Assembly (NCBI RefSeq): GCF_035083965.1
Contig: NC_089726.1
Span: 14,823,501 to 14,887,500, forward strand
Length of the DNA: 64,000 nucleotides
From: Branchiostoma lanceolatum
Taxonomy: Eukaryota > Chordata > Leptocardii > Amphioxiformes > Branchiostomatidae
Direction of reading: 5' to 3'
In this document: positions 1,517-27,168 of the stretch, one piece after another
Layout of the letters: each line of letters begins with the position of its first letter
Numbering within the stretch: position 1 is the stretch's first letter
The notes under the pieces: generated by a model
Databases searched by the model: none
What the model was told of the DNA's origin: nothing
Seen by the model: only the letters and a program-made list of their open reading frames with translations
Made by a program: the position numbers and the translations under genes

Positions 1517-4500
1517 TCAAAGCTGAGGCTTGGTCCACTTGTAGGTGCCTGAGAAAATGAAGCCAAACTTCCTGGCAAGGTCGTCAGCTTCCTGGGGGCC
1601 TCGGCTGGGAACATCAGTAAACAAAACAAGATTAGCACTCAGTTATCATCAAGGAGGTTAAGAAATAACCTCATTGTTATCATGTATTGTACACATGCAG
1701 GGTTCAGTTCAGGCTGTCATAAAAGCTAAAAGACCACCGAAAAATGACACAAAGTTTCTTCATGATTGGAAGTGGGCCTCATCCGCAACTTGGTACACTT
1801 CATAGGCAACTCACCTGCCATACTTGTAAGGTGCAGGCTTTATCTTTTCGTTCTCTAGTTTGTGAAGTAGTGGTGTGAAAATCCTCCAGGCCTCTCGAAG
1901 TTCATCACTATAAGATACAAATCAACTCATGTGAAGCAAATTCAAACAATGTGAACAGCAGATTCTGAATTATTCCCAAAAGAACAGAAAAGATGACAAG
2001 TGCTGCACATAACTGAGTACCTTCTGACGAAGTGGAGTTGTGCACCACAGAACACATCCAGGATGAGTCGCTCGTATGCATCAGGCATCTTCACCCCCTG
2101 TACAGGACAAAAAAAGTATAGGGAAGGTTTGCTACAAAGTACAAACACAACATACAACATTTACTGTTTCTTAGAATGAACACAAAGACATAGCAAAATC
2201 AAATGTCCACTTGGTTGAGCTACTTCAAAAAGTGATTATTGAAGCATTCAAGCTCTATATTCTTCTTCTTCCTATTGCTTTATTTTCAATACAAACTTTG
2301 AAGTTTTATACACATACACCTTCTCCATAGATGCACAATATCTGTCCTATAGAAGTTAACAAATAGTGCTACTGTAAAAAATGTACAATTAAAATGTACA
2401 AACCTTGTATCTTGCCCCATAGGACAGGTCCAGCTCTGACTCCTCAGGGTTGATGTTCATGCCAGGTGCCTTCACCATCATCTTACAGTACACCGCCTCC
2501 TGCGGCTGCACACGGATCACCAGCTCGTTACGCTTACACTGTCCGCCGAAGATGTCACCAGGAACGTCCTTGAACTGGATCCGTACTTCTGCCTTCCTCT
2601 CGTTTAGAGCTGAGGGGAGGCAGACACAAACATTCATGAGAAAGCCTGAAAGCATCAAGTGTCAGTTACAGATTTGTTACCATTTCAATGATTCAGATGC
2701 ACCAAGAAATTAAGTTTGAGTCTTTTAACTTGCAATTGTTAACCAAGGTGACTATGCTTAGTGTCACTGATGAAAAGTAGTGGATGCTGCTTGAAACATC
2801 TGACCGTTTCCAAAATTATATCCAGTTGCTTGAGTAACTGCTATTTGGCGCAAAGTGACTATATGCATTGTATCTTATGCAAAGTTGCAACATCTTATAA
2901 TGCAGTTGTAAAGTTATGTATCTTTGTAAAGGAATAACAACACGATTTGTACTTGCCATACTAGAGTGAATACCAGTAATCTGAGGACATCTTACCTTTA
3001 CCACACTTCATGATGAAAGGAACTCCATCCCATCTCTCTGTCTTCACAAACACCACAGCTGAGGCAAAGGTGGGGGTGACTGACCCCTTGGGCACAGTTT
3101 TGTCATCCAGGTAGCCATTTTTGGCATCGCCCTCCCCCTGGGGGTCTCCGGTGTACTGTCCAACCACAACGTTCTCCAGCTCCAGGGGAGGCATGCACTT
3201 CAGCACTTTCACCTGTAGAGTCAAAAGTATCAACCCATGTCAGTCTACCTGGAAGGTTTACCACCTGTAGCAAGATTACTTACTGATACAATGAACCTGT
3301 ACGTACTAGTGTCTGTCTTCTCTGTCATGCCCAGTAGAAGAATAGCTCTCCAGTGAGTTAAACTGGATCGAAATCACTTTCCTTTTTTTCCCTGTCCTTG
3401 GTGCTGAAATGTTCTTATGTGGTCTTGTATCCTTCACATAAATGTACTGAACAAACCTTGTCACAATGCATCTGTTTGTATTATTCAAATCAAGCTATAC
3501 AAATGCACTTAACACAATGCCCTTACACAATGCTGGGAGACCATTTGAAATTTTGCTGTCTTTAACTAGTGAGTTATAGAAGCAAGAGCAAACGATGAAG
3601 TGTGATGATGAATAATCCAACATATACACAGGGGCCATACTTGTGCCAATGGGAATTTCTCCATATCATCATTGACACACTCCTTATGATAGATATGTAA
3701 GGGCATGTCTGTACACAGAGCAACATGATTGGTACCACGGTACATCCTGTTATCTGATAGTCTCTGTATACAGTGGCTGTTATTGTGAGGTTAATAGTGT
3801 AGTGTGATGTTAGGTTAGGTTGACCTTCTCATCTCTGATGTCCTCTGCACTAGTGGAGGCGGGTTTCTCCATGGCGACCAGGGACAGGATCTGCATCAGA
3901 TGGTTCTGCATCACGTCCCTGAGATTACAGGAATAGGGACAACTTGTTACATATGAATAAACATTTCAGAGGTCACGAGAGAAGGAAAGGGCACATGTAG
4001 CCAGCGTCTCTTATTCTGTCACTGGAAAGAATTTTGCTGTGTAGGACCTACGAATTATAAAATTATTCTGTCAAACTTGACAGGTAAATTTGGTAGGCAA
4101 AGATATGGAAGTACCCCAATTTGAATAACTACACCCAAACACCAGTCTGGAAATTGAACAATGATGGAAATATGTACATGATGACAGAAAATAAATCTTT
4201 TTAGGATTTTTACCTCAACGGGAATTGGGATGAAGGAAAAAAAAATGGTCTGGCTAAAGCCCTGTACATGTGTAACAGCTTACATTATGGTGACTCTGTG
4301 ACAGCCAGAAACAAGAATAGAATCCAGGAAGAAACAGGAATCCATCTTAGAGTAAAAGGGGTGCCTCGCTGAGTCTGGTTGTCTAAACTTTTAACAGCCA
4401 AGCTCACCTGATGATTCCAGACTCGTCAAAATATCCTCCCCTGCCCATGGTACCGAAGGGTTCCTTGAACGTGATGACAACACACTGCACATGGTCCCGG

Positions 4501-7500
4501 TGCCACAGGGGGCTGAACATCTTGTTTCCAAACCTAAAATAAAAAAGTAAACTGTTTCGGTCCTGCCTAGCTTAAAACAATACATGTATGTACATACAGT
4601 TGTTGTATGTGTAACATGATATGCTACATCTTTATGCACCCTCTATCTTTGCATGTCTATGTTTGTACGTAATAGCTGTTCTATTTCAGAAGTCAATAGG
4701 GTCTAAGGGGGGACCTTCAAATTAACATTCAACAATAAGAGTGACAGGATTTCAAAGCATGTAAGATTGTACTTAGCATAAGAGGTCAACGACCAGCATA
4801 ACAATCTGCACACTTAAGATGAGAGGACCTTTACTGCTGTTACAGTATGAAGATTTGTTGGGAACAGTCCTATGTTCCAAAGCCCCTATATATGAGCTGA
4901 TGCTCCTATGTTCCAACAACCATACAATCCAACAACACCCCTATGTTAGTAATAAAGGTTGTCAGAACATAGGGGTGCTAGAACATAGGGATGTCAGAAC
5001 ATAGGGGTGTTGGAACATAGGGGTGTTGAAACATAGGGGTGTAACTGATATGTTAACATACCTCAGGACCATGAGGTTCTGGACCATCTCCTTGCCCAGG
5101 TAGTGGTCGATCCTGTAGATCTGGTCCTCCCTGAACAGCTTGGACAGGTGCTGGGACAGGTCGGCCGAGCTCTCGCTGTCACGGCCAAACGGCTTCTCCA
5201 CAATGATACGGGACCAACCCCTGACGTTTGGGACAGGAGGGAATGAAGGAGGGGTCATGTTTGTTATCTTTCACAATTCAGAATAGGACATTTGCAAATG
5301 TGCATCATCTAACAATATGCTCTCCATTAGAACATGGGAGTCTATGGCTATTACATTTCTATTATATAATAGTACTGTAGAAGATTTGTGTAGACAACTT
5401 CTTGAAACTTTGAGAAAGATATGACTGCTAAAATCTTAGTCTTCTGTCAATCATGCTTCTATTTGGCAGCATGTTTGTTCACCCCTCGTTTCTTAGACAG
5501 ACCACTGCTTCGACTTACACATATGTACTTGGCTTCTGAAGATGATGCACACTTGACAGTCCCAAGTTGTATAAAGGTATGGAGCAATGGCAGGCATCAT
5601 TAATGATCAAATCACCGCACTACCACAAAATATCAACTCATCAGCAATTGAAAGCATGATATAGTATGAATGATGATGCATAGCTCTTTGGAATGCATAG
5701 ACTGCATGAAACGTCATACCATGCATTTGCAAGATCCTGATTAGTAAGCAAAAGAAAGTATGGAAATGCAGCAAGCAGATTATGTAAAACTACTAAGCAT
5801 CACTGCATGCCTTAACACCTTGCCTGGCCCATAGACTTTTTAATGACCTTGTCTGGCCAGCAGGACAGGATGACTTGGTGATGTGAAAACAAAGCTTTTA
5901 GCCCTTCTCTACAAACTAAAAGCTTAATGGCTGCCTTCTGCACTATGACTGGCCATGCTATAGCAGGGACAGAAAACAGCAAGTTGCTCCAATGTGCCAT
6001 TATTTCACCACTGTCTTGCCCTTTTGCTGCTATAGAAGCTGTGTTATCTTCGCAAATGCATAAGGTACAGGGAACAAAAACAAGGAGAACAAAACAGGTA
6101 AAAGAAAGAAACAAAACTACATGTATTACATGATGGTAATCTATCATCTAATACCGTCTCGCTGTCAGATCCCCAGACAAATAAAAACAAGCACTTCAAT
6201 TTTTCAGACATTCCAATGGAACATGAGTATATGTCATAAGGTAGATGAGAGAAGGAGGAATGCTTTGCAAAAGCACAACTGGTCTATCAAAGGAAAATTG
6301 TGGCTTTTTTCATCCAATCATTTCCTTAGAAGTTCTGATTTCTATCAGGGCTGGCTGATGATTGAAATTATTGTGAAGTCAGAAGATAAACTGATGCAAT
6401 ATACACTGCATAATGTTTGTTTGTTGTGGCCACACCCTCCAGACCATGACATGTACTGTACTTTGCCTGCCCTTCCCAAAGCCTATCCTTCACAGTCAAC
6501 CAACCATCCCATCCCAGATATACTGAGAAAACCCATGAGTTCTGCTAAGTGTTTCGGCATGCACAACAAGCAGAGCTATTGCACAGCATCTGGTAATTAG
6601 ATAGTTAAACTAAGAGTTATTGTGATTCATCAAAAGTTGCTGCCATACCCTGACCCAGTCGACACAGTCGACTCCTCGAGACCACTGCAAAAGATACAAA
6701 CATCATCTCCTTATAGAAAACACACCAGGGGACAGAATTAAGAGTTGTTCCTTCCAAGATAGCTGATGACTTGTTCATATGAGGAACAACAAGAACTAAG
6801 ATTGGCATTTGTTTTGTTTTGTTTTGCCTTTTGTTTGGAGAAATCCATGCTACTAGTACTTGGAAGGAAATGTATACACATCAAGTATAGACAAGGGTTT
6901 CTACATTTATCCACTAAAATTGGTGGATTCCATTGGAAGCTTTACTTTCCATTTTTGCTGCCTTCACCTGTACATTGTCAGTGCAACATAATTTGATTGG
7001 ATATGTTTCAAACTGGACACAAAACATGTGAATGGAAAGTGTAAGTTGTGAGAAGGCACTGAAAGTACCACTTCTGTGACTGTTTTAGATAGCTGCTTAT
7101 CTAAATCTAAACTTTAAGTATTGGTATGATGTATCTAAGCTGCACCAATGATGGCTACCCTGAGGAAAATTAACAAGTTTTACAGTTTCAAAAGGACTTT
7201 GATATGTAAACCCTGTTTAAAGTAATCTTGTTATGAACCTCTGTTGCTGATATTTCAAGCAGTGTTTGATTCTCATAAGAAAAAAAGGGACAGTGATATT
7301 TCTGTTACTTCGAAATACAACAATTCTGTACACTCCTAGATGTATGACATGAAATAATTGCTTGTATGAAAAGCTTCAGCTGACATGATGACAACCGCCC
7401 TGTTTTCTGCTATTGGGATGAAATGGATAAGTGAGGCTCTGCTATTTAAAGAAGCCATGCAAAATCCATTACTGCATTGGAAACAACAAGCTAATAATTA

Positions 7501-10066
7501 GAATCTGTGCTAAACTGATCTATTTGATATTGAAAGGCCTTACTCGTGTCCCATGCAGCATAGGCGGACGTTGGAGGACACATCTTTAAAGACGGTGGGT
7601 GGCAGCGCTAGGTAGAAGAGCCTGTGAGCCAGGTCCCCCTTGGGGAGGGTGTTGATCTCCTGGTTCAGGTGTTCAAAGTCTGTACGCTCTGTGTACGAAC
7701 CTTTCACGTACGAGTTCATCTTCCAGAACTCCTCAAACTTGTCCTTCTCGTCATCTTGGAGCTGCATTTTGTTATGAAGAACAGAGATCATGTTTCCTTT
7801 TCTTGATCTTATCACTACACTTAATATGTTTTACCAAGGACATTGGTTTTACTTACCTTGGGGTAACAGGCAAGGAAGGTGGCCAAATGGTAAAACAGTG
7901 AATAGAATAGACACTCATGACCACTTCTTTATATTTTGAGATCATATATACATAATGTAGAATTATCATCTAAACAAGTTGTCAACAAAGCTACACAACC
8001 TGACTTAACCTAAATGCAGTATCGTGTATCTTGCTAGCTTCTACATCTTCTTAACATTTGCTTCTTTGTAATAATGAATCTTAGTGCTTATAGCCATATG
8101 GGAGTGAGTATATTACGTAAAGAAGATGGCACCCAGGCTAAATGAACATTGAAGTTATAAAAACGTGATACTGTACCTTCATGTACTGCGTGGACTTGTC
8201 CCTGACGGCCTGCACAGTCAAGTCCGACCTGGCATAGCCAACGAAGTAAGTCTGTCTGGGCAACAAGCCATCCTTGAACAGCCACCTGATAGAACAAACA
8301 TTGGTCAAAGTCAGAAAACAAGGATTTGTAGACCACTTATTAAAATGTTCTCATAAAGACTAAGGGTGATGGTTTGGCCACACCAAGTAGCCATTAAGCT
8401 ACTTAATGTGGCCAAACCATCACCCTTAGTCTTTATGAGAACAAGAAAACAGTTGTTGTATGTGGTCATATGTGTCAATTGTGCTTTTTGTATCATTTGA
8501 TTCATATGTGACTTATCATGTGAGAAAATTTTTTTCCTACTATTGGTGGCACGTGATACTTTTTCATTCTTGACCCATTCTACTAGGAATACCCAGGCTT
8601 TCTAATCTAAGATCGAGAGATTTTCTACACTTTAATCACATGAATGACATGTAAAATGTCCTTTGTACATATTTGGACACTTACCACAATGTGGGGTAGA
8701 TTTTCTTTTTAGCCAAATCACCCTGAGAAAGGACAAAAAGATCAAGTTAATAATAAGATATACAGATGGACAATGACAACTTGTTTGGAGATACTAAAAG
8801 TCATTTATTGTTATTCTTAACTTAAGATAGTGACAATTTTTTCAACTACTTGTATTCCATGTATGTGCTGTTCATAGTTATGCATCATAGTGATTTTGTT
8901 TTCTGTATCTGTATCCATATAGCCAATATAACCGACATTCAGTGTAACACACCAGTTTCTCACATTCATAGCGGGTCGAACTTAAGCTGTGGCAGCAGGT
9001 AGGTTTTTTCAGTACGTTATGGTTTGTTGTCCTTATTCAGTAGTCTTACGATGAACGGTATACTGCTGTTTCTAAATCTTTCAGTCCTAGTTCTGACTGT
9101 GTCGAGTTCGTTACAATGTCTTGTGTGGCAGTTACTAATCTGTCCTCTGGATAGAGGATGCTCCTACGGTACTTGATGACGAGTTCTATTCTACTATGGT
9201 TCTCGGAAAATACGTTTTATTAGTCTGTACCAAGATGTCAACAAACAAGGTGGCATAGCATTTCTTTATCTTTGTCTTATTGTTCAATACAAACTCTTTC
9301 TTGCAGGTTAATGTATTTTCCATAGATGTTAACTTCCTTGAGGAGGTTTTAGGGTTAATGAGAAGAACCCAATCTTTGACCTAGCTTAAAACATTATCAC
9401 AAGGAATGCTTGGAAGGGTATTTCAGTGCTGACAGGTATGTGTACACAATGGCATGGTATGGTAACGTTATGTGTAAAAGTGCAATGCAATTCTAGCAAT
9501 ATGTCTGAGAAACTTGTATCAACAAATTATCACTGAATGCACGCCTGTAAGTTTTCATTGAAAACTTACAGGCGTGCATTCAGTGATAATTTGTTGATAC
9601 AAGTTTCTCAGACATATTGCTAGAATTGCATTGCACTTTTACACATAACGTTACCATACCATTTAATAACATTTGGCAATTCTATTTTTAAATGCAACTG
9701 CAGAACAACAACACTCACCGAGGCACCAAAGACAACGAAGACATGAGGAACATCGTCCTGACTGTCCAGGGTCTCCTTCAGGATGCTGACACCTTTAAGG
9801 AGTTGGTCTTTAGTCTTCTGGACACTAGAGACGGCGTTGGTCTGGACGTTATAATTAGACATGGTGTTGTTTCCGTGTCCTGTCTGTGCTGTAAGACTGT
9901 GTACCTGTCTAGATCTGCAGGGCTCTCCTGTCTCTGGATTAGCTCCACCCACCAACTGTGAGGAATATGAATGAGAATCACTGCTTGAAGGCGGAGGGTT
10001 GACTCTTGATGTATCCTCAGGCGATGTAGATTGTCTGGAGCGATCCTTGCTGCTTCCTGTACCCAT
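1517..10066 (-). CDS. G6PD: Glucose-6-phosphate dehydrogenase (12 coding exons plus an optional microexon)
   Basis: This is the cytosolic enzyme that oxidises glucose-6-phosphate to 6-phosphogluconolactone and makes NADPH, the first step of the oxidative pentose phosphate pathway. Coding exons on the minus strand, in order, are 10066-9719, 8722-8685, 8285-8177, 7761-7544, 5220-5062, 4533-4408, 3918-3825, 3212-2996, 2609-2404, 2097-2021, 1907-1815 and 1604-1517; all phases join and give 590 residues. Visible hallmarks are the coenzyme motif GASGDLAKKK, FYLALPP, EKPFGRD, the active-site signature [21 protein letters not shown] and the C-terminal GTYKW. The ATG at 10064-10066 follows an in-frame stop and adds an extension of about 68 residues over the in-frame ATG at 9860-9862 (MSNYN), which would give 522 residues, close to the human 515. 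Identity is certain; the start codon used is not. Confidence 0.97.
1642..1683. repeat. Micro-palindrome flanked by 8-bp direct repeats
   Basis: A 26-bp imperfect palindrome (CAAGGAGGTTA...TAACCTCATT) at 1650-1675 is bracketed by identical 8-bp direct repeats GTTATCAT at 1642-1649 and 1676-1683. The same palindrome consensus occurs at 15913-15937 with a different 8-bp duplication, which indicates a transposed or excised mobile unit rather than chance. Confidence 0.6.
4849..5042. repeat. Minisatellite of about 16-bp GAACATAGGGGTG units in both orientations
   Basis: Five near-identical units of about 16 bp with core GAACATAGGGGTG run from about 4963 to 5042, while the left part (about 4865-4950) carries the same core in inverse orientation (CCTATGTTCCAA). 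The array lies in a G6PD intron, and its right edge is about 20 nt from the splice donor of exon 5062-5220. Confidence 0.75.
6649..6684 (-). CDS. G6PD: Candidate 36-nt cassette microexon of G6PD
   Basis: Within the long intron between exons 7544-7761 and 5062-5220 there is a 36-nt open segment preceded by a pyrimidine-rich stretch ending TTTTGCAG and followed by GTATGG. Its phase fits both neighbours. Inclusion changes His-Glu-Gly-Trp to His-Asp, then [12 protein letters not shown], then Gly-Trp, adding 12 residues just before the [12 protein letters not shown] strand. Skipping gives a protein that aligns with human G6PD without gaps at this point. It is therefore an optional exon by inference; no transcript evidence is available here. 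Confidence 0.5.
8346..8443. repeat. 98-bp near-perfect palindrome in a G6PD intron
   Basis: Two 37-bp arms (8346-8382 and 8407-8443) are exact reverse complements, and the 24-bp centre contains an inner inverted repeat AAGTAGC/GCTACTT. Transcribed, it would form a long hairpin in the intron between exons 8722-8685 and 8285-8177, close to the acceptor of the latter. No coding content; it could be a short MITE. Confidence 0.85.
9454..9662. repeat. 209-bp palindrome with 104-bp arms and one central base
   Basis: Positions 9454-9557 and 9559-9662 read as exact reverse complements around a single base at 9558. The palindrome ends 56 bp before the G6PD exon 9719-10066 (downstream of its splice donor). 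There is no transposon-like end motif and I saw no direct repeats flanking it. It is either a very young fold-back duplication or a library or assembly inversion artefact. Confidence 0.85.
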
Positions 10067-11428
10067 AACCACACACGCTAGGGGAGGCGTGAATCAGCAA
10101 ATCCTCACGTGGGCCTTCTCAGTAATCATTGACCAAAACGTGCAGTCAGGCGGAGTATGTGAACAGAAAACACTCAGGCAACCCATATGTTGACATGGAG
10201 TAGGACTTTGTAGAATCCTCGATTTGTTGCACCAGACGAAACAGATCTAGCATACAGGAAACGTCAAGCCCTTCTCAAGTTCTCACAGCGAGTGCAACAC
10301 CAACACGGAAATGGCGTGACCAGGAAACGATTTAAGTTCTTAAATGCAATCAATAAGTAAATGTGTTGTCAAGGTTGCTAATGTTTGTTACCATGGTTCA
10401 GTAATGCAAAGTTAATCAATACTGCTTGGGGGGTTAATGTTTGTCCAGCGCAAGTGTCAGAATGACAACGCAAAATTTGACCACACTGAACTCTGACGCA
10501 ACTGGTCGAATTACCACGTTGGATTGTTGTTAGTGTTTACATAAATTTATGTCATAACCAGATGGTGTTACTGGTCACGATATACATGACATGTGACCTT
10601 ACGATGACACCCGTCCATTCCTTGCTAATCTCACTGCTTCAACAGTTTGTTTGCACTGGGAGGAGGAAACAAGGACTTTTTAAACGCCTTGTGATTCTAA
10701 ACGTCAGCGTTTAAAAAGCATATCGAGTTCGGGATGCAATGTACAGAGTGATAGCAACAACAAAACAACAGAATATTAAGGTTTAAACGATACCATCAGG
10801 GAGTATGAACGTCCAAATAGTGTAAATCTAAGAACCTACCTGAAGATGCACCTCCCTTTGTCAAGATAGCAGCTCCGCCCCTCAGCTGTGACAAGACCAG
10901 AATGTTTACAGATGTGGGCAACTCCATTCACTCAAATAGGGGTGTACAATAACATTTGATATCATACAAAGCACTCGAATAATATAGTCTATGCATACAA
11001 AACATGTCAAAACACATCATCCTTTGTTTTATCATTTCAATTCTATTGTTTCATGATCCAGATATATTACAATAGAAAGCAAACACCCCAACAATTTGAA
11101 AGTGAGATAATCCATCTTACCGGATATGAAATGTCGTGACTTCCTGTACTTTGTCCAGAGAGTAAAAATGGCGGTTTATTACAAAAGTGGATGAAGAAGT
11201 CGCTTGAATTTAACGGTTTTACAATGTTTGAAGCACGTTAATTCCAGATAGATTGGTGAGAATAAATACTCCGCTGTATGTAGAATGTTTTGTTACTTTC
11301 TGAGGCAAGTGCCGGAGCAAGGGCTAAGCAGTAAAATGTGTTAAACCGTCATGGATTTAATTAATTTTGGTCTGTTGTGATGAAATATATTTTTCTGGTC
11401 AGGTACAACAGGTTTGGAGCTGGTCAAG
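10067..11428. promoter_or_regulatory. Divergent promoter region between G6PD and DCLRE1B
   Basis: The two start codons face away from each other about 1.36 kb apart with no coding sequence between. On the minus strand a good donor (TCTTCAG then GTAGGT, exon edge at 10846) suggests a spliced G6PD 5' UTR exon next to a GC-rich stretch near 10850-10890. On the plus strand an acceptor TTTTTCTGGTCAG ends at 11402, just before the DCLRE1B start, which suggests an upstream noncoding exon. AAAAATGGCGG at about 11164 resembles a YY1-type site. The transcription start sites are inferred. Confidence 0.5.
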
Positions 11429-14400
11429 ATGAATGGGTGCCTCATCCCCCACACGCCGTTCGCTGTGGACTTCTGGAAATCCCGGCAGAGTGAACACACC
11501 AGACTGTTCTTCCTGACACACATGCACGCTGATCATACCTCAGGTAAAGATGCATGTCTCACAAAATATAATAACAAGATAACTTGTCATCATTTAGTAT
11601 AGATTATAGGCTAGTATTTTGGCTATATTTTACTTCTAGTATGGGGGCAATACTGGGTCTGGGACAGTTTGTCAGCAGCATAACCCAGAGTCTGCGAGTG
11701 TGTTATGCTGTATAGCAAAACTCAAACTGTGTTGTGATTTACAGATTTATGATTTTTGATTTGCAGTTTTGTGTAGAAATGGATATCAATTTTTGTAGTA
11801 GATTCTAACGTCATGTAGACTTTGAATTTGGAAAAGTTGTAGCTTCTGAAGAAATGATTCGCTTAAAAGTCTGGTAATATAGTCAATTTATAGTGTGGTC
11901 GTTGGAAATTCCTTGTACAAATTCCTTGTCGCACACTGACCCCCATCTCAGGACTATCACCATCATGGAAACATCCCATCTACTGCTCCGACATCACAGC
12001 CAAACTGCTGATCCACAAGTTCAACATCGCCCCTGCCCTGGTGCACACCCTGGAGGTGGGGGAGAGCCACATCCTGGCCCTGGACGAGACGGGACAGGAG
12101 ACCATGACGGTGACCGTGTTCGATGCTAACCACTGTCCGGGTGCCGTCATGTTCCTGTTCCAGGGGTACTTCGGATCAATCTTCTACACTGGGGATTTCA
12201 GGTGTGGCCTTGGTTACATCTTTATCCATTACATGCAATGAATATTTTACAGACCTGCTATAAGTTCATTTACTTACGTGGTAGGAAGGAAAATGAGAGG
12301 TTTTGCTGTGCTATAAATTTGTGATTGAAGCAATTCTGTAGTACAATACAAGGAGACATATTTGCTGTGCTATAGATTTTGCGTCGAGTGATGGAGGGAA
12401 AAAACTGCCAAAAGAGAATCACCTCGAAAGTTTCACGATTTACAGTACTGTATATGATGTTGTGAACTCCTTCACAATAGGGTAAATCTCATGACTCTTC
12501 CAATTGGTTGTGTTGTCTTTCACTCCAGATACAGTCCCGAAATGTTTGACCATGAAGCCCTGGCAAACAAACCTTCTATCGATGTGCTGTACTTGGATAA
12601 CACCTACTGTAGCCCAGAGTGCAAGTTTCCCTCCAGGACACAAGCCACACAGATGATAAAGGACATCATATCTCGCCACCCTGAGTACGACATCATACTA
12701 GGCATGACTATGTTAGGAAAGGAGGACATGCTCGTGGAACTGGCCAAGACATTTCAGACCTGGGTGGTGGTTACACCACAGAGGATGGAAACCTTAAAGC
12801 AGTTGGAACTACCAAACGTGTTCACCACAGACCCAGAGGCTGGCAGAATTAGGGTAGCTCTGAAGTACCAAGTTACCAGGAAAAACTTGGAGAAGTGGAA
12901 CCAAGAAAGGCCCACAATAGCCATCCTACCTTCAGCCTTGTTTACTGGGTTGAATGGAAAACCGTACGCCAACCAGCCGGGCGTTCACATCGTCCCGTAC
13001 TCCGACCACTCCTCGTACCAAGAGTTGCACGGGTTTGTGTCCAGGCTCAAGCCCAGGTCCATCATCCCTGTGGTGAAAGGGACCAGCAGAGGTGTGTTTG
13101 GGACATCGCTGCATGGGAGGGCTGACATGCACTGCTTTGACAAATACCTGGAGTCAAGTGCAAAGAGAACATTCCAGATTCCTGAATCTGTCAGGAAGTT
13201 TATGTTCCGTGGGTCCCATAACTCTGTGGTTGACGTGTTTGCGGACAAAGCTTGTGAGAGCAAAGGGAAAAGTTCCAGGAGTTGTGTTTCTGCAACAAGG
13301 GGGAGACCTATGGGTGTAGTGTTCATAGACTCCCCACAGAGCACACCAGAGAAGACCAAGTGTCAGCAAACAGTAGGCCCAGAAAATGAAAGTAGGAGAG
13401 TCTGTGGTGAGACAAATGGCAAGACTGTAGCAACAAGCAGTGAATCATCCCTCAGTTCAAAGTGTATGAAGGAGTCTGACAATTGCACAGAAGAGACTAT
13501 TCTGTCTAATAATGTTGAAAGTAAAGTTAAGAGCAGGAAGAGAAAGCTCCCTGCAAGTATAGCAATCGCTGCCCAAGCTTTTGTTTATCATAATGGACGA
13601 AAGAGGGATTGTGACAATGACCTTGTAGGAGGCAGCCCAAAACGTATCCACTGTCAGCCTGAGAAGAAGAGCAATGGTTTTGCCACAGGAGAGGGAAGAA
13701 TGCGCAATGGACCAACAGGTCTGATACCATTCACACAACAACAGGGAAAGGAGTTACCAGAAGGACAGCATAAGAACATCCCTCCTGCATTATATGTTTA
13801 TGATTTTTCTACTCACAACACTGTAGACAAGAGTACAAGCCTGTCTGACAAAGTGCCTTCAGAATCAGAAAATGGTGAGGCTCCCAAAATGTTGAGAACA
13901 TTCATCACACCACCAAGGGCCATCGATTGTAGCATGACATCTGCCATGGATTCCACTCAATCAGTAAGAAAAGGTCAACTGACACTTGATGCATTCTTCC
14001 CAAGGACTGTCGACAAGATGACGGGTCATTCCTCCAAGGATAATTCTCCTTACCAGATGCAGTTAGAAGAACAGGGTATGGAAAGTACAGAGCTTCTGTC
14101 AAAAAAGCCACTGAAAAAAAAGCGAAATGAAAAAGACAGAAAATGCCAAGGAAAGTCACCTCAGTATCAGCAGGCCAACAGTAGAAAGTCAGGTGAACAT
14201 AGAGAGTCCTTCCTCGAGAAGTCTTGCATTGGGAGAAGTAAAGCTGATGCAGCATCCCATTCAAAATCATTGGTCAGGAATGGCGCAACAGCAAGCAATG
14301 ATGAAGATGTGATCAGTCTGTCTGATTCTGACTCAAGTGAATCACCTTCTCCTAAGAAAGAATGCCTTAGCCAAAAGTCACAGACTAGAAGCAGAAAGAG

Positions 14401-14647
14401 TGGGGAGTGTGCTGCTGGTGTTGATGTAGGTGTGGGACCTAAGAAGTCCAACAAAGAAGCAATCTCATTGGTAGATGAAGAGCACTTAGAGTGTATAGAG
14501 GATGAGATCATTGAGTCTCTCCTGTTAGACGATAAATCAGATATGTGCAGTCCTGTACAAAAGAAGGGGGAAATTGTCTTGCTGAAAAGTGTTGTCTCTT
14601 TGAAATGTAAACAAGTACGCAAAAGGAGATCAAATGTTCACGATTAG
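11429..14647 (+). CDS. DCLRE1B: 5' DNA exonuclease Apollo (SNM1B), intact copy
   Basis: Apollo is a metallo-beta-lactamase/beta-CASP 5'-3' exonuclease that in vertebrates acts at telomeres with TRF2 and in crosslink repair. Exons 11429-11543, 11952-12201 and 12529-14647 join in phase to give 827 residues, against about 532 in human. The N-terminus [16 protein letters not shown] identifies Apollo rather than Artemis or SNM1A. Metal-binding residues are present: HMHADH at 31-36, His99 in DANHCPG and Asp120 in TGDFR, with the beta-CASP region running to VPYSDHSSY. The 480-residue tail is low complexity and basic-acidic; it holds a canonical PIP-box QLTLDAFF (residues 605-612, bases 13976-13999) and a SUMO-interacting motif VISL followed by acidic SDSD (from residue 716, base 14309). 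A clear TRF2-docking YxLxP is not seen; TFITP near 13904 is the nearest match. The TTG upstream of the ATG is not needed. Confidence 0.95.
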
Positions 14648-15945: not shown

Positions 15946-16213
15946 TATACGTAGTTAACTTTCTTGCGTTTTGGGTTTGTCAATCTGAACTTTCAGGTAT
16001 TGAGAAACCCCTTGTCACAGCCTCCTACTTAAGTGAAATCAGCATTTTGATGCAGTGCGCATGTGAATCGAAACTGAAAGTAGACAGTTACGCAAAGGCG
16101 TGGTAAGCTCCGAAACGGAAGAAAACGCTTCGCTACGTGGCCGTGGTAAGCACGGAATCCTCTATCTTTTCAGTTAACTACTAGCATATACAACAGGTTT
16201 GGAGCTGGTCAAG

Positions 16214-18225
16214 ATGAATGGGTGCCTCATCCCCCACACGCCGTTCGCTGTGGACTTCTGGAAATCCCGTCAGAGTGTCCACACCAGACTGTTCTTCCTG
16301 ACACACATGCACGCTGATCATACCTCAGGTATAAGTTATTTCTCATACCTGCAACACGCTTGTCATCATAAGAAAACAGACCAGACGCTAGCCGCTTGGC
16401 TGTGAGGTCAACACTGGCTGTGTGTTATGCTACAGATAAGATAACGTTAGTAGAATCTAAGATTTATCAAATCTCAAACTGTGTTATGATTTACAGTTTG
16501 ACAACTTTGATTTATAATTCTGCCCGGCCCAGCATTATTAATATCAATTGTAATACATGTAGCATATTCTATTGATCTATAGAGAATGAAATTGTTACTA
16601 TTACTGTATTAGAAAAGATTGTACTTTCTGAACAATTAGTTTGAACAAATTAAAACTACATGTAGTACCATGCTGACCCCCATTTCAGGACTATCACCAT
16701 CATGGAAGCATCCCATCTACTGCTCCGACATCACAGCCAAACTGCTGATCCACAAGTTCAACATCGCCCCAGTCCTGGTGCACACCCTGGAGGTGGGGGA
16801 GAGCCACATCCTGGCCCTGGACGAGACGGGACAGGAGACCATGACGGTGACCGTGTTCGATGCTAACCACTGTCCGGGTGCCGTCATGTTCCTGTTCCAG
16901 GGGTACTTCGGATCAATCTTCTACACTGGGGATTTCAGGTGTGGCCTTGGTTACATCTTTATTCAATACATACAATAGATATTTTACAGACCTATTTACG
17001 CTAACTTCATTTACTTTTGTGGTGGTTTTATTTTAAGGTAGGAGGGAAACGGAGGCTTTTGCTGTGCTATGAATTCGCAGTTGTAACAATTCTGTAGTAC
17101 AGTAGTCATACAGGGGGAGACGTATTCTGATGCCATAAATTCGCGGCAAAGAAACCCGTGAAAATAGAATCAAATTCTATTTTCACGGTTTTCTTCGTTT
17201 TATCACCTCAAATATTTCACAATTTACAGTATATCATAATGTAAACTCCCTAAAAAATTGTAACTCTTGCAATTGGTTGTGTTTTCTGTCCCTCCAGATA
17301 CAGTCCCGAAATGTTTGAACATGAAGTCCTGGCAAACAGATTTTCTATCGATGTGCTGTACTTGGACAACACCTACTGCAGCCCAGAGTGCAAGTTTCCC
17401 TCCAGGACACAAGCCACACAGATGATAAAGGACATCATATCTCGTCACCCTGAGCATGACATTGTTGTTGGCATGTCTAGTATGTATATAGGAAAGGAGG
17501 ACATGCTCGTGGAACTGGCCAAGACATTTCAGACCTGGGTGGTGGTTACACCACAGAGGATGGAAACCTTGAAGCTGTTGGAGCTACCAAACGTGTTCAC
17601 CACAGACCCAGAGGCTGGCAGAATAAGGGTCGCTCTGAAGTACCAAATTACCAGGAAAAACTTGGAGAGGTGGAACCAAGAAAGACCTACAACAGCCATC
17701 ATATCTTCAGCCTTGTATACTGGGTTGGATGGGAATCCGTACACCAACCAGCCGGATGTTCACATCGTCCCGTACTCCGACCACTCCTCATACCGAGAGT
17801 TGCACGAGTTTGTGTCCAGGCTCAAGCCCAAGTCCATCATCCCTGTGGTGAAAGGGACCAGTGAAAGGGCAGACATGCACTGCTTCGACAACTACCTGGA
17901 GTCAAGTGCTAAGAGAATATTCCAGATTCCTGAGTCTGTCAGGAAGTTTATGTTCTATGGGTCCTATTCCTCTTGTAAGAGAAAAAGGAAAAGTTCCAGA
18001 CCTTTTTTTTCTTTAACAAGGTTCCTGAGACCTAGTATGGGTGTAGTGTTCATAGACTCCCCACCTGAGAGCACACCAGAGAAGACCAGGTGTCAACAAA
18101 CAGTAGGCCCAGAAAAGGAAAGTAGGAGAGTCTGTGGTGAGACAAATGGCAAGACCGTAGCAACAAGTTGCGAATCACTCCGCAGTTCCGAGCAATCTGA
18201 AAATTATACGGAAAAAAACTTATGA
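16214..18225 (+). CDS. DCLRE1B: Second DCLRE1B (Apollo) copy, truncated after the nuclease domain
   Basis: Exons 16214-16328, 16689-16938 and 17298-18225 match the first copy base for base in length for the first two exons (115 and 250 nt) and keep its phases, giving 430 residues. HMHADH, DANHCPG, TGDFR and VPYSDHSSY are all intact, so the catalytic domain could be functional. Compared with copy 1, exon 1 is nearly identical, there is an in-frame loss of about 11 residues after VVKGTS, and the frame ends at TGA 18223-18225. The PIP-box and SUMO motif are gone. Homology begins abruptly at TACAACAGG (16192), so the acceptor and promoter upstream of copy 1 were not duplicated. It may be expressed from another promoter or be a recent pseudogene. 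Confidence 0.65.
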
Positions 18226-19245: not shown

Positions 19246-19569
19246 TGGATTTCAATGATTTGGTTATTTTGGGCAAATACATGTACATGTACATGTATAG
19301 TAAACAGAAAGTAACCTATGTATTAGAAGTAGAAAGCAAAGATAGTGCTTTGTTGATAATTGCATAAGAAAATAGATATTCAAGATGAAAATTGATCTTC
19401 AAGATGACAAGAAGCAATGGATGGATTGACTGATTATTGAAAGGAGATGTAGGTACTGTATACTGGAAAGTAAAAGTTGACTGAGCTGTTGAGAGTAGAC
19501 TGCATCGTTGAAGACATACATATGATATAGTGGATTATGAAAACTAATTTGTTTGATTTCATAGCTACT

Positions 19570-19594
19570 AGCAAGGAGGTCTAACTTCCTTGCT
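19570..19594. repeat. Micro-palindrome present in copy 2 and absent from copy 1
   Basis: AGCAAGGAGGT...ACTTCCTTGCT is a 25-bp near-palindrome of the family seen at 1650 and 15914. In the matching flank of copy 1 (CATAGCTATCGG, about 14988) it is missing, so it appears to be an insertion. Flanking CTACTAGC and CTTTTAGC agree at 6 of 8 positions. Confidence 0.5.
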
Positions 19595-20002
19595 TTTAGC
19601 AATAGATGACAAAGAATCAAAATATGATACAAGAACATTGTTTGAAACTTTATTTATTCACGACAAGCTCAAGTAGACCCGCTGACCACTTTTCATATCA
19701 TGTAGGTCATGAGGTAAGATGATAGCTACTTTTTTTATTCATGAACATGTATTACATGTAGAATATATTTGTAGACCTGTAAAGTTGTAATGGACTCTAT
19801 GGCTCCCCGTGCTAGTTGTGTACCTATCATCTTTCAAGTCAACACTGAAAGGAAAAACGTAACATCTAACGTTACTGCCTCCTAGCAACTATTATTCAAA
19901 GTACATGCACAAAATACTACGCAGTAGAAACTGTTTAGTCTGTCTGATTAGATATTTTGCATAGAATCATATAATTCAATGTGATATAAGCATTTTCCAA
20001 CA

Positions 20003-21450
20003 ATCCTTTCTGGAATAATATACAAAATTGGTTGAAAAAAGAGATTTCTATGAATTTTGACTTAGATTCCTTTATGATTATGTTTGGAGATATATCTGCA
20101 AATGCATCTCCCCTTAAAAATCTGATAATTTTGTTAGGTAAAATTTTCATCTTCCGGTGTAGAAGTTTAAAAATCATAAATTTCCAGTCCTTTGGAAAAT
20201 TGGTATCTTCTTTTGAAAAGACAGAACGTCTCATTGCATCTCGGAGGGGTAAGCTGGAGAAGCATCGGGGTAAGTGGGGAACCTTATGTTTAATTTAATT
20301 TCATGTGAATTACATTATATGTAATTATTGATACAGACGAAGCCACTTAATTGCACCTCGGATAAACGCACCTTCCGTTTAATTGCACCGAATCCCAATA
20401 TCCAAAACCGGTTCCCATTCACTGCATTGTTAGTGACTCAGCATATCTGCACCGTGCATGGTCACCAATGCCGGATAACTGCACCAATTTTTTTCCAAAA
20501 TCCTCGACAAGTTAACTGAAAAGGTGCGCTAAAATCGGCAAACGCGGTACAAATGAGCCGATACCTGCCGGTGTGAAGGCGCAATACCGCCAATAAGTTT
20601 AAAACTGTTTTGAGTAACAAAACAAGGCGGTCTCCATTGGCAGTTACGTTGATAGGAATCGTATGGGAGGTCCCGGGCGGGTCACCCGTAATCAGTAACC
20701 AAGTTTTAGTTTCAATTCCTAGTTTCATGGCGGTACATGATTTACGTAAATCGACAACTGCACTCGACGTAATGTAACAGAAACTGTTATCCCATGGGTG
20801 GCATGACGATGTTTCAGAATGCCTCCCCTGTAACATTATGTGTGTTGTAATGCGGTAGATTGCATGGAAAAATGAAAGAATGCAAAATCAAAACAGGTTC
20901 GTAGTCATTTCTTTATTTTCAGCAAAGGGTCAATAAATAAAGTTGATAACTGAATAATTTCGTCTGTTTTTTTGTGCTTGTGTTTCTGACTAACAAAATA
21001 ACCCCTCGCCCATGGTGGTGCGGTCCAGCTGGGCATTTCGCATAATTGCACCAGCCGGATAATTGCACCAAAAACGCTGACAAATGGGTGGTGCAGTTAA
21101 GCGGATTCTACTGTACTATTAGTAATTGTATTACTATTTGTAATTATTGATACTAATAGTATGCTACTATTCAAAACGATTATAATATAGAAGTAACGAA
21201 TTAAGGACATGTAATCATATACAATATTGTTTGGAGCGGAGGCTAACTACAATTGATACTCATAAGGGAGGCTATGATCATCTGTAAGTGTATATGTGCT
21301 GCACATGTACACACTGTCCCGGTTTTTATTTGGCTTTTGTTGTGCCCATGTATGTCCTTTTTTCTGTTAGTGTTTGAGATTGTAATTTATTTTGAAATAC
21401 CAATAAAGAAAACAAAAAACAAGAAAAAACCAAAGAAAAAAAAACAATCA
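20003..21450 (+). mobile_element. 5'-truncated LINE fragment (Tx1/L1-like) with a nested DNA element
   Basis: This block interrupts the duplicated DCLRE1B flank: copy 1 runs on from 15555 while copy 2 resumes near 21447 with a repeated CAATC. Plus-strand residues such as WLKKEISMNFDLDSFMIMFG and LIILLGKIFIFRCRSLK (20020-20180) resemble the C-terminal end of Tx1/L1-type reverse transcriptase proteins, and the far end is A-rich after AATAAAG, as expected for a retrotransposed 3' end. It is split by the element at 20334-21113. The family assignment is by eye. Confidence 0.65.
20334..21113. mobile_element. 780-bp pogo/Tigger-like non-autonomous element with TA target
   Basis: It begins CAGACGAAGCCACTTAATTG and its other end, reverse complemented, begins CAGTAGAATCCGCTTAACTG, both continuing into CACC. 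A TA dinucleotide lies on each side (20332-20333 and 21114-21115). The ends resemble pogo/Tigger termini. The interior repeats the TTGCACC theme and has no transposase that I can recognise, although a 124-residue minus-strand ORF is present at 20462-20836. Confidence 0.65.
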
Positions 21451-21687
21451 ATCCTGTTTTGAGATTTTCATTATATATTGGATTGTTTTGAAATTTTTTT
21501 CCAGCAATTGTCATGTATACAGTAAAGATATCTCTGATGACAACATGAGCAGTTGTCTACTTGGGTATACTGAGATCAAAGTTTTAGACAGGTTCAGACC
21601 ATTTAATTTTTTTTCAGTACCGAAGAGCTGGCTGTAGCTGGTGCTGCTTCTAGGAAGTCAGGTTTGGCAGATCCAGTGCTCCAGCAT

Positions 21688-24517
21688 CTAATGCCTCCCG
21701 CCTGGAAGTTAGATGTTACTTATTATATTCTTTAGATACATATTCCTGAAGGTCTTAAGACTAAAATCTTAAAGGGCTGTTTCAAGATCATTGATATATC
21801 ATGTGCCATAAACTCATTTACGATTAGATCGATGTACTAACTACATGCAGATGACATACTGACCAGAAATCTCAATGGCTGCTCCATTCACAAAGCTGCT
21901 TTCCTCAGAAGCCAGGAAGGTGAAAAGATTAGCCACCTCTGTGCAGGAATAAAATCATATTCATTCATATTTGGGTTACAGAGTGCAGGAAGAAAATGGA
22001 CTAAAGCTAAGAAGGCTGGACTCCAGGCTAATACCCAAGTATGTTCTTACGATTAATGTATCCAAATTACATTCATAAAAACCTGACCACTTTCCGACAA
22101 CTAGCGATAGAGCGCAGTAAGTTCGAGCGCTTGAAAAGGGTCTAAGATAGGCCCCTCCCCGTTAGATGTGTGAGGAGAAGCAGTTATAGGGCCCTCCCCG
22201 TTAGCTGTGTGAGGAGAAGCTGTGACTCACCTTAAGATATGACCCTCCCCGTTAGATGTGTGAGGAGAAGCAGTGACTCACCTTAAGATATGACCCTCCC
22301 CGTTAGATGTGTGAGGAGAAGCTGTGACTCACCTGTCGGCTCACCAGGGCGCCCTAGTGGAGAATTCACCCATTGCTGAAATGGTAATTGGTAAACGTGT
22401 TTAATACATGATTGGTACATGAGTTCCGTATGAAACATTCCCTGTGGATTGGTTCACCAAAGGATGGCAGCTGCACATACATACATACCCAAACAGCAGT
22501 ATGCATGGCTCATGTGCGGCTATTGAGTGGTGCTCGTACGTACCTTGAATGTTTCTTCAGAAACGTGCTCCGCGCTCTTCATCAAGGCTGGAGTCGCGAT
22601 GGGGCCTGGCAGGACGGCGTTACAGCGGATGCCATGTCTGTGAGAATGTTGATATAAAATTGGAACACGTAAAGTTGTTAACATTGGCAACGACTTGTGT
22701 TTTGTTAATCCAGTTTAGCTAGGGAAGGCTTGGAAAAGACTATCGATTATTAAGACACGGACTGAACTTTCTGATAGAAGGATGCAGTTGGCTGGTTTGT
22801 ACCATGTATTTGCTAAAATGACACTGAATGCGTGAAAAGTGCGACATTTTCAACTCTGCAACCGGCTTTACTTGTATGTATCCCTGACTCACCGTGCCAG
22901 CTCCAGGGCGGCGATGCGTGTTAGCTGCACCACTCCAGCCTTGGCTGCACCGAAGTGAGACAGTGTTTCCTCTGGGGTCTTTTACAATAAAACATTCCTT
23001 ATTGTATCCATAATCTACATATGTATATATATCCCTATATATATATATATCCCTAAGCCATTTTAGATAAATGTACTCGTAGGGCATCTAGTTAGTTCAT
23101 CAAGTACATGGTCTACCAGTGATATTTTCTGTGCTGAAACAAAAACATGACCTCACCTATGAGAGGGCATCTGTCACTAGTACTCAGGATTGTTTATAGC
23201 GTACTTATTATATTAGAATCGATATCTAAAGGTGAAATACATGAAACTGTCAGTAAACTCTGCTCATACGTTTGCCACCAGGCTGCCAATGGTGATGATG
23301 GATCCTTTCTGCACGTTGTGTTTCAACATAGCTCGTGCTGCTGCCTGCACCACTAGAAACGTCCCCTGGAGACCAAAATGAAATTACAGATTGGTATCGT
23401 AATGTCCAACAGGTCCTTCTTTTCTCTGTCGAAATGATAGAACAAAAAGAAACTGACAGACTTAGCTAACAAACTGAAACCATTCGAAGTTACTTTTTAA
23501 GTGAATAGGTTCTTGGGAAAACCATTCGAAGTTACTTTTTAAGTGAACACAAACTCTTGCAATCATGAGAACTGATACATGCAAGGCAAGACCTAGTACC
23601 AGTATACCGTATAACAAGCGTTAAGTGATGATTTGTTTTTAAAAATCTATCTGGGTTCTGATCATGTTTGCACTGATAACATTGTCACCTTCACATTGAC
23701 CCTTATTGTTTCGTCAAACGCTTCCTCCGACAGCTCCAGTATCGGCCCGATCCCCAGGTTGCTTCCACCTGCAATCTGTGCCACGACGTCAGGTGCCGCT
23801 TTGTACTCGTTGCACACGAAATCAAACATCTTCTGCACCTATAATGACGAGTAATGACGGCACGTACGTAGTACATTCAGTTACATTTGACCTACGGTAT
23901 GGTATCTTCGGTTTATAAGAGTAGCACGCTAGCGACTCATCCAAGCAAATCTATCACACACCAAATTCAAGCAAAGTATACAAAACTGTGGCGTCTTCAA
24001 TTGACTGCTTATTATGACTTGACTCATATCACAGCTAAGTCTTAAATCATAAATGTTGATTTTTTTTTTTACGTCTTCCGATAATGACACATTCGCTACG
24101 TAGTCACGGTGGCTGCTGGGATCGCCCTCCAGTGACTTCAGAGTGTCGTTGGCGGTGGCTCCGTTGATGTCGGATACAACAACCTTTGCACCTTCCCTGG
24201 CGAAGGCCTGGCACACAGCACGGCCGATGCCACTCCCTCCGGCTATAAATCATATACAAACTCGTTCAAAATTGTTTGTCTATCGTATGATTCTATAGCA
24301 ACACATCTACATTTGTGTATATGAAAAAAAGGTTATATAGTTGGTAATAGCTGGTATCCAGCGGGTCAAAGTCACTGGTATTTTGCACACAACGTCACCA
24401 TAACAAAATAAAGATAAACACAAAGAGAAATCTTAGTTGAAGCCCAAAATGGCGGAGCAACTCACCTGTCACCAATGCAAGTTTTCCTGTGAGACGCCCT
24501 TTTCCTCCCTCCGCCAT
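21688..24517 (-). CDS. Short-chain dehydrogenase/reductase resembling HSD17B8/FabG, catalytic Tyr replaced by Phe
   Basis: Nine exons on the minus strand join in phase to 259 residues: 24517-24466, 24242-24073, 23838-23689, 23365-23270, 22978-22893, 22637-22544, 22375-22333, 21938-21864 and 21701-21688. The protein follows the classical SDR plan: KLALVT then GGSGIGR (cofactor loop), RVNVK (Asn122), IITIGS (catalytic Ser152), AAKAG (Lys169) and CNAVLPGPIATP. By eye it is closest to human HSD17B8, an NAD-dependent 17-beta-hydroxysteroid/3-ketoacyl reductase of mitochondrial fatty acid synthesis. Two deviations stand out: the YxxxK tyrosine is Phe165 (SHFGAAK), and the TGxxxGxG loop reads TAGGSGIG. 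Dehydrogenase activity may be lost. An ATTAAA on the minus strand at 21602-21607 could serve as the polyadenylation signal. Confidence 0.88.
22150..22332. repeat. 51-bp minisatellite that repeats a splice donor
   Basis: About four units with CCCTCCCCGTTAGATGTG and GAGGAGAAGC run up to the donor of the SDR exon 22333-22375. The period is exactly 51 bp over the last units. On the minus strand, two of the inner units carry AAG followed by GTGAGTCAC at 22281 and 22230, the same donor context as the genuine site at 22332. Confidence 0.85.
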
Positions 24518-27168
24518 TTGCTACTATTTCCCAACAATTCCAGGTGAGGAGTCTGTCTGGTAGAGACTACGAATGATCCGTCCCGCGTTCCTGATGCTTG
24601 ATTTGGTACTTGTAGACACCAGGTGACTGTACCCTACCCAATGAATGTATTGTGCTTCACCTCAAATGCACCCGAAAAATGACCTCTGATCTAGACTGGA
24701 GCGTTTTGGCTACTCTCCAAGGAGAGGAGTGGTTCCGGCTGGTTTTTGACGTGTTTTTAGGCGTTTTTTGTTGGGCTTTCTACTTTATAGAGAAATAAAA
24801 CATGAAAAAGTAAAAACGCCTAAAAACACGTCAAACACCAGCCGGAACCACACCTCTGCGCATGCTTGGAGAGTACGTTTTGGTGTCACCGGTTGAAATG
24901 GATCATGCAGTTGCGACAAGGTCTGGAGGGCGTGACAGTATCGTTTCTCTGGATTGGACCAAAATTATGGGATTGTGCGGTTTTGCCGTAATTCTTTGTT
25001 GTTGTTTCGTCAAGTTTATATCTTAAGCACTCTCTTCAAGCCAAAAAAGGAACTTAGTTAGCAGGTTCATAACGGTAATAGCGGCAAGATATCTTTGAGC
25101 AATATTCTCCTCGCAGAAACATTACACGGTTACGTCGCCACAAAAACTCCGCCGTTCTCAACGCCACGGGCGGAACTTTGAACTTGTAATATTTTTGTAT
25201 CAACAGGACTAGAGAAAAGATATAACACGTATAACATCAGTGACCAAGGTTATCAATAACGTCGGCATGTGACAGACTTGAAGAAATTGTGGTTTATTCT
25301 TTCGCCAGATTGGTGTCGTGTCAATTATTTAAACTCTTACCGAAAAACGCATCGGATTTAGGCCCATTTAGGTAAACTTAGGTAAACTAGCGTTATGTCA
25401 GAAGATGCTCGCCAAAATACGTATTGGCCATATTATGCCACGGACATAATTTGCAAATAGGCATTTGCCGAATCTTGTGTTGTTATTGATTCTAAAAGTA
25501 TACTTACCTCGCCTGACTAAATCGCGCTACAAGCGGCCGACGGACCAATCAACCAGCCTTAAGCAGCGAGAGATTGTGTTGTGTAGCTAGGAACTGCCTC
25601 ACTCTCCAAGGAGAGGTTGATTGGGGAGATTGTGACCGTCTTGCAATGTCAAATGCCCCATTTTCTAACTTGCAGCCGGCTGAGAGTAGGAATTACCTCA
25701 TCGCTTATACTGCTTCGCACATATTTTAGTTACAGCACAGAGAAAGGTAACGACCCTGCGCTGAAATGCCCCCTAGCAGCTTGCGTTCAAAGTACAGGCA
25801 TTGACCTGTCCTGTTCATTCCATGTCAATCCGTCGCGACGTCGGTGGTTTCTGAGTCATGGAATTGAGAATTGTCAGAATTTCCATTTTCCTCGCAAACT
25901 CTTGGGTCATCAGGACAAAGTACATCTGGGTTATAATGATAATGGTTTTTCGTTTGTTTTTTGCATGTGCAATTTTCAGCCCACATGCAAATAAGGACCT
26001 TACTTGCATAAATCATATCAGTTGATCATCTTCTCTACCCAAATAACACAAGTTGTCAATGTATGAAAGTCTTGTCTTCGCAAGAATACATTTATAGTAT
26101 TTTGTCATTGAATATGCAAATTAGGTATTAATTTACATACATGTAATTGATATCTATCGATATTCATTTCTTACTCGGTTACATATGTCATGTGTTTGAG
26201 AGTCCTATAAAGGAATGCAGCTGATAAACTTTCCTCATTAATTATGCAAATATATATAGATATTGATTTGCATACTTGGCATATGATTATGTAAATCATC
26301 ACTTAAGCTATCTACATACCAAAAATCCCCTGCAGTACCATAGAAAGTCGCTAGGGGGGGGGGGGCAAATATGAAGACAATCCATCCAGGCATTCTACAG
26401 TTATCGTCCCGTGGACTTTCACATTCCTGTACAATTCCCAGAATTCTTGAACTGAAACTGCACACAATATAACATACACCATTAGCTAGGTTCGCTCCTG
26501 AGGCGCCAAAATATTGTCATCGTTTCTTGAATTCTTCAGAAGAAAGTACAAGCATGTGTGGACTACAGATATCCTAGTGTCCATGTCATACTGCAGTACT
26601 GGGTGTCCACACATTGCCAACCACGCCCCCTGACCAGTACAGCTCAGTTTTGCCGGGGTACACGTTGTGGCATACCATTGGTCCAGGTAGCCCTAAACAC
26701 GTGCTGCACAGAGGCTCTCAAAGTCGCATATGGGAACATTGTATGCAACGTTAAATTATGCACATAAATCTATAATGGTATGCTATGATGATCTACACAA
26801 TCTTGGCCAAAGTGTTTTTTTACGTGATCTAGCCCTGTATAAACTATGTCCTCCCTTCCAAACTTTGGCGCCAGCCACTAGATTCCTTCTGACCTTTCAC
26901 CGGCATGACTTCTCACGCATAATATCACTGCGCATCAATATTCAACTTGCCACTGATAATTTACAACATGTTTGATTTTCCTTCTCTATAAAGCCATCTT
27001 TATGTACATGATTTATTGATATTCTCTCTGTTACGAGCTTTTACCTGTCGATGGATTTGACCTTCCGGACTATTTTGATGACCGCAGCAGAGTACATGCG
27101 TGGTACGTCCCAGCTGGTATGGGACAGAATCATGGCTGGGGTTGGAGGGTCTGGGGTTTTTCAAAATC
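24518..27168. other. Intergenic region between the SDR and EDEM1 promoters
   Basis: The SDR gene and EDEM1 are transcribed away from each other, so this 2.65 kb contains both promoters. No coding exon was recognised. It holds the MITE at 24710-24875, a further ACTCTCCAAGGAGAG motif at 25601-25615 without a visible partner end, and an 11-bp G run near 26355. The 125-residue plus-strand ORF at 25617-25994 has no recognisable features. Confidence 0.5.
24710..24875. mobile_element. hAT-like MITE with an 8-bp target duplication
   Basis: A 166-bp palindromic element with left end CTACTCTCCAAGGAGAGG and right end CATGCTTGGAGAGTA, and inner arms GTGGTTCCGGCTGG and CCAGCCGGAACCAC plus an inner repeat around AACGCCTAAAAACACGTC. 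Perfect 8-bp direct repeats CGTTTTGG lie at 24702-24709 and 24876-24883. There is no ORF. Family and duplication length point to hAT-type transposition. Confidence 0.85.

Follow-up and report, generated by a model that had tools for sequence, protein, structure and literature searches.

A candidate optional 36-nt cassette exon in amphioxus G6PD at a site of variable length among bacterial G6PDs

Introduction

The pentose phosphate pathway is entered through G6PD, which thereby sets the supply of NADPH; microexons, for their part, have been studied mostly in neural genes. A 36-nt segment in the fourth intron of the amphioxus G6PD gene raises the question of whether this housekeeping enzyme might be made in two forms, one with and one without a short in-frame insert. 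The first-pass annotation of this DNA had stated that no metazoan G6PD isoform of such a kind is described, which is doubtful given the human 'Long' isoform (UniProt P11413), in which a 46-residue in-frame insert follows residue 257. In the human case, as in the one proposed for amphioxus, splicing optionally lengthens a metazoan G6PD in frame; the human insert, however, is longer and consists of intron sequence adjoining an exon, whereas the candidate is a 36-nt segment of its own, located where the exons join at codon 162 in human numbering. Our literature search found no paper on the human 'Long' isoform, and an amphioxus G6PD isoform was not found named in the literature searched.

Results

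The host gene and its skip form

We analysed a window of 64,000 nucleotides of Branchiostoma lanceolatum DNA, in which the minus strand carries a G6PD coding region of 12 exons (1517..10066), its start being taken at the first in-frame ATG in exon 1 and its end at the stop. When exon 4 is joined directly to exon 5, the predicted protein aligns with human G6PD over 483 residues with 0 gaps (about 797 bits), and by this match the host gene is G6PD; the expectation of the first-pass annotation that skipping the segment would give an ungapped match to the human enzyme is thereby confirmed. Exon 4 (7544..7761, minus, 218 nt), the upstream neighbour of the candidate, ends in phase 2 with GGA CAC GA, while exon 5 (5062..5220, minus, 159 nt), the downstream neighbour, starts with G GGT TGG TCC. 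Between them lies intron 4 (5221..7543, minus, 2,323 nt), which hosts the candidate and is the longest of the 11 coding introns. Table 1 of PMC5116582 gives qPCR primers for B. belcheri G6PDH with a 181-bp cDNA product; on our assembled coding sequence each primer has 1 mismatch, and the predicted product, which spans the exon 9/10 junction, is exactly 181 bp. Taken with the mir-4863 match described below, this assigns the window to Branchiostoma.

Two further features of the gene model concern its start and its eighth and ninth exons. In exon 1 (9863-10066, minus), the first in-frame ATG opens a 68-residue Ser-rich extension, MGTGSSKDR..., the start of which fits the N-myristoylation consensus. 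This stretch may equally be 5' untranslated, because its codon score per codon is low (0.20 vs 0.48 for the rest of the protein) and near those of the other frames (0.14 and 0.25). Exons 8 and 9 (2404-3212, minus) measure 217 and 206 nt, and their human counterparts 187 and 236 nt, with an equal sum, which would mean a 30-nt shift of the intron position relative to human.

Anatomy of the candidate and the predicted protein change

The candidate cassette exon (6649..6684, minus) combines an acceptor, a donor, a frame-neutral phase and an open frame, all of which can be read directly from the DNA. TTTGTATCTTTTGCAG stands directly 5' of it, and the candidate acceptor region (6685..6704, minus) reads GATGTTTGTATCTTTTGCAG, with TGC at -5 (UGC in the RNA) and the nearest 5' AG ending 22 nt before the exon. 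The segment itself ends in AGG and is followed directly 3' by the candidate donor GTATGG (6643..6648, minus). It contains 0 stops in all three frames, and the reading frame is kept to the end of the protein both with and without it, confirming the earlier claim that its 36 nt are a multiple of three and that its phase fits both neighbours. Another donor, likewise in frame, lies 6 nt upstream; it is weaker (0.4 bits), and its use would give a 30-nt alternative form (6655..6684, minus) that adds 10 residues.

The skip form reads CCMGH-E-GWSRII, and the segment falls at HE|GW. Since the 13 codons across the junction are composed of GA from exon 4, the 36 nt and G from exon 5, inclusion would change the junction Glu to Asp, such that 13 residues replace one Glu. 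The first-pass description of a 12-residue insert rich in Ser, Thr and Gly thus holds for the net gain and for the composition, but had overlooked the substitution at the junction.

Splice signals

All of our splice-site bit scores derive from an approximate splice matrix of the vertebrate type. On this scale the candidate acceptor scores 3.5 bits and the candidate donor 2.5 bits, the latter about equal to the upstream donor of exon 4 at 7544 (also 2.5 bits), and in each case 6 of the 11 true G6PD sites score above the candidate. A good acceptor and a usable donor, as previously noted, are both present, but their strengths are middling. At the segment's own score thresholds, intron 4 offers no other open pair of 6-60 nt that keeps the frame, and the antisense strand of the intron contains 0 such pairs. 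In 400 simulated introns, we found a mean of 0.0375 pairs at the candidate's thresholds. Across the whole window and both strands, 6 pairs in the candidate's phase are as good (candidate included), a count by which about 0.1 such pairs are expected per 2.3 kb, and 42 pairs are as good at any length of 6-90 nt. Because the window holds 6 equally good pairs in the candidate's phase, splice signals by themselves are weak evidence for an exon.

These numbers bring in a chance pseudo-exon as an explanation, i.e. a GC-richer patch of intron in which an AG and a GT lie at a frame-neutral distance and which is never spliced in. We consider the odds of this to be somewhat short of even. It is favored by the pair counts just given, by the middling scores of the candidate sites and by a non-coding pair elsewhere in the window, a frame-neutral 39-nt segment (36681-36719, minus), which has stronger sites (7.2 and 7.9 bits) and little coding signal. 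The near-tandem TCGACTG repeat visible inside the candidate points the same way. With thresholds set to zero, all 11 G6PD introns taken in their own phases yield 6 pairs, among which a coding score above 1.5 is found only in the candidate itself and in the 30-nt version that uses the alternative donor.

Composition and combined score

Composition is stronger evidence than the splice signals. The segment has a GC content of 0.61 vs 0.38 in intron 4 and carries 3 of the intron's 14 CpG, and 0 of 6,013 other 36-mers of the G6PD introns match both its GC and its CpG level. We also calculated codon log-odds, for which five presumed coding stretches (G6PD included) were set against the G6PD introns as training data. 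Read in frame, the segment scores 9.5; the two remaining forward frames give 5.4 and 4.8, and one reverse frame gives 8.0. In comparison, 0 of 2,824 overlapping open 39-mers from the G6PD introns reach 9.5 (mean -3.8, sd 3.3); true 13-codon windows of G6PD average 5.8. The gap in codon score between the segment and the introns is largely a matter of GC content. Furthermore, other parts of the window hold many GC- and CpG-rich 36-mers, as would suit a pseudo-exon, with 202 of 7,465 at 19500-27000 and 122 of 8,965 at 28000-37000, exons not having been removed from either count. Thus, the composition of the segment is exon-like relative to its own intron and less exceptional across the window.

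When splice and codon scores are combined, the segment reaches 15.5, a mark attained by just 3 of 1,500 order-2 simulated introns, which argues against a pseudo-exon. The same mark is reached in 8 of 50 real window blocks of intron-4 length, because the high-scoring segments there mostly overlap coding exons. Window-wide, 15 segments reach it, candidate included. Of the remaining 14, we read 12 as overlapping coding exons (8 in sense and 4 in antisense), a further point against a pseudo-exon; the 2 that do not are at 36719-36681 and 27113-27045, both minus. It should be noted that 8 of these 12 overlaps are backed by either a significant Pfam match or the alignment to G6PD, 1 by a weak collinear match (E 0.12) and 3 by a reading of the translations alone.

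The insertion site among bacterial G6PDs

We next compared the insertion site with bacterial G6PDs. The survey comprised 72 loci, which gave 70 usable proteins (L018 and L062 were dropped, having no protein with both motifs) and, after removal of three duplicates, 67 distinct ones, which were aligned with the amphioxus skip form using MAFFT. A sequence scan of genome contigs gave 8 bacterial G6PD loci and none from amphioxus. Of the surveyed loci, 60 are the best-scoring matches (46 of 119 and 77 of 120 genomes had a match) and not a random sample. In 56 of the 67 proteins, 2-14 extra residues stand at precisely the E/G boundary of MGHE^GWS, and 17 of the 67 have at least 4 there. Six sites, this one among them, show extra residues in at least 50 of the 67, and the longest insert overall is found here, at 14 residues, the next being 13.

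Among the 11 G6PD introns, intron 4 alone lies within 2 residues of such a variable-length site, which speaks against a chance pseudo-exon. At the same tolerance, intron 9 lies near extra residues in 2 of 67 proteins, of at most 2 residues, and the other nine introns near none. At 3 residues, intron 3 comes near a fixed 4-residue difference (67 of 67 bacterial G6PDs) and intron 6 near a site with extra residues in 2 of 67; at 6 residues, intron 11 comes near a 1-residue difference.

The two longest loops at MGHE^GWS belong to L031 (+12) and L041 (+14), both of which have the RIDHYLGKE and GxxGDL-type motifs intact and score 637 and 589 bits, respectively, against the zwf equivalog (cut-off 400.6). 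Since these two proteins keep RIDHYLGKE and pass that cut-off, a 12-residue insert at this site appears compatible with a working fold. The L041 insert is absent from the five solved structures shown against that protein. Both resemble the amphioxus inclusion form in their net gain of +12 or +14 over the same interval, but their loops are genomically fixed and unspliced, and the loop sequences are unrelated to the amphioxus insert. We take the insertion site to be a helix-to-strand loop of the G6PD coenzyme domain, at the start of the strand and away from the cofactor end. The first-pass annotation had placed the insert before a conserved strand and by the active site; the loop does precede WSRIIVEKP, but it is not the active site, and the link was one of sequence order only, since nearness to RIDHYLGKE places nothing there.

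The bacterial enzymes with 12-14 extra residues at the same site, together with the preserved frame, would also suit a lineage-specific constitutive exon, present in every amphioxus G6PD transcript with the skip form never made. We regard this as very unlikely, given that the donor is no stronger than the G6PD average (6 of 11 true donors are higher) and that the skip form matches human G6PD without a gap.

Comparison with neural microexons

The first-pass annotation had also suggested tissue-specific tuning of the enzyme. The strict definition of a neural microexon sets a limit of 27 nt, which the 36-nt candidate exceeds. According to the passage of PMC8797185 on fly eMIC exons, these have long AG-exclusion zones (their length being given without a cut-off), UGC near the acceptor, CUAAY branch sites, UCUC-rich tracts, a weak 5' site of their own and a strong upstream 5' site. 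The candidate shares with the eMIC/SRRM neural microexons described there the UGC close to its acceptor, but it differs from them in both the AG-exclusion zone and the branch site: no long AG-free zone was found 5' of it, as the nearest AG is just 22 nt away, and the 150 nt upstream contain no CUAAY. As to the 5' splice sites, its own donor is below the G6PD median, and the upstream one, at 2.5 bits, is not strong. With most of the checkable eMIC hallmarks absent, the suggestion of tissue-specific tuning is unsupported, and nothing in the sequence features that we checked points to a neural programme; that the candidate is a neural microexon of the SRRM/eMIC programme, tuning G6PD in neurons, seems to us extremely improbable. 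The same source reports that microexon conservation drops quickly outside vertebrates, amphioxus included, and so the absence of the segment from vertebrate G6PD is no argument against an amphioxus exon.

Origin and RNA structure of the segment

Several other explanations for the segment were tried and rejected. A duplicate or mobile origin was dismissed, as the 36-mer matches nowhere else in the window even when 3 mismatches are allowed, and a duplicated start of exon 5 is not supported (local alignment score 13.0, with a fraction of 0.498 of 500 shuffles as high). The region holds a 7-bp hairpin, but RNA structure was likewise set aside, because the segment, folded together with its 20-nt flanks, has a z of -0.34 and 72 of 200 shuffles fold as well. 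A search for repeats around the segment (5100-7600) returned nothing beyond short chance-like matches, and viral contigs contained 0 exact 24-nt matches to it.

Discussion

We give about an even chance to the 36 nt being a real optional cassette exon with both forms made. The exon-like composition and the placement at a variable-length site raise these odds, and they are lowered by the a priori rarity of unannotated short cassette exons and by the modest splice scores. This weighting, like those of the pseudo-exon and the constitutive exon, with the remainder left to a neural programme, is our judgement and was not computed. The length variation of the family at the site is directly observed, as are the features of the segment itself; its splicing, as well as the folding and any function of the inclusion form, we infer. 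If the segment is a real cassette exon, it would be included in at least some amphioxus G6PD transcripts. Skipping would yield a G6PD of the usual metazoan length, and inclusion would add 12 residues past the helix that follows FYLALPP, just ahead of the core strand WSRIIVEKP. The inclusion form should still fold, because bacterial G6PDs vary in length at the insertion site. The added loop would be flexible, Gly/Ser/Thr-rich and on the surface, most likely with little direct effect on catalysis, and at most it might change stability, contacts or modification.

A further reading, which we consider improbable, is that inclusion is regulated and provides amphioxus with a second G6PD whose loop changes partner binding, modification or stability, giving two differently behaving NADPH-producing enzymes from one gene; as part of this same reading, the spot of the loop would be the variable-length site that was lengthened independently in bacterial G6PDs. 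A real exon would let one ask, in a natural setting, whether the length of this loop alters stability or regulation with the active site untouched, and a housekeeping enzyme would thereby join the list of genes with lineage-specific microexons, outside the neural ones. A useful comparison is provided by the Agrin Z exons and the chordate cassette microexons treated in PMC12445529, which are similarly very short, optional and frame-neutral and place a few residues at a loop. As described there, Agrin Z exons carry a binding motif and are proven by cDNA in both tunicates and vertebrates, and a candidate Agrin Z exon is reported for amphioxus, whereas the G6PD candidate has no such motif and is predicted from genome sequence.

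Other features of the window

The other introns of the G6PD gene contain several repeats. Intron 1 has a perfect palindrome (9454-9662) with two 104-nt arms that are 100% complementary and 1 nt apart; it arose by inverted duplication very recently or is an artefact of the assembly. A second palindrome, in intron 2 (8346-8443), has 46-nt arms that are 96% complementary and 6 nt apart and resembles a small foldback element, while intron 5 contains short imperfect direct repeats of CACCCCTATGTT (4960-5046, minus). On the plus strand, two tandem and very similar genes match DRMBL (DNA-repair metallo-beta-lactamase, SNM1-like), at 11384-14647 and 16178-18225, the second being apparently shorter. 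A glycosyl hydrolase family 47 (EDEM-like) gene with spread-out exons and collinear Pfam matches occupies 27082-48961 (plus), and the 39-nt segment with strong splice scores at 36681-36719 stands opposite it. Inside the family 47 gene lies a mir-4863 precursor (39505-39596, plus; Rfam 106.8 bits, gathering 100), which belongs to what we take to be an amphioxus miRNA family.
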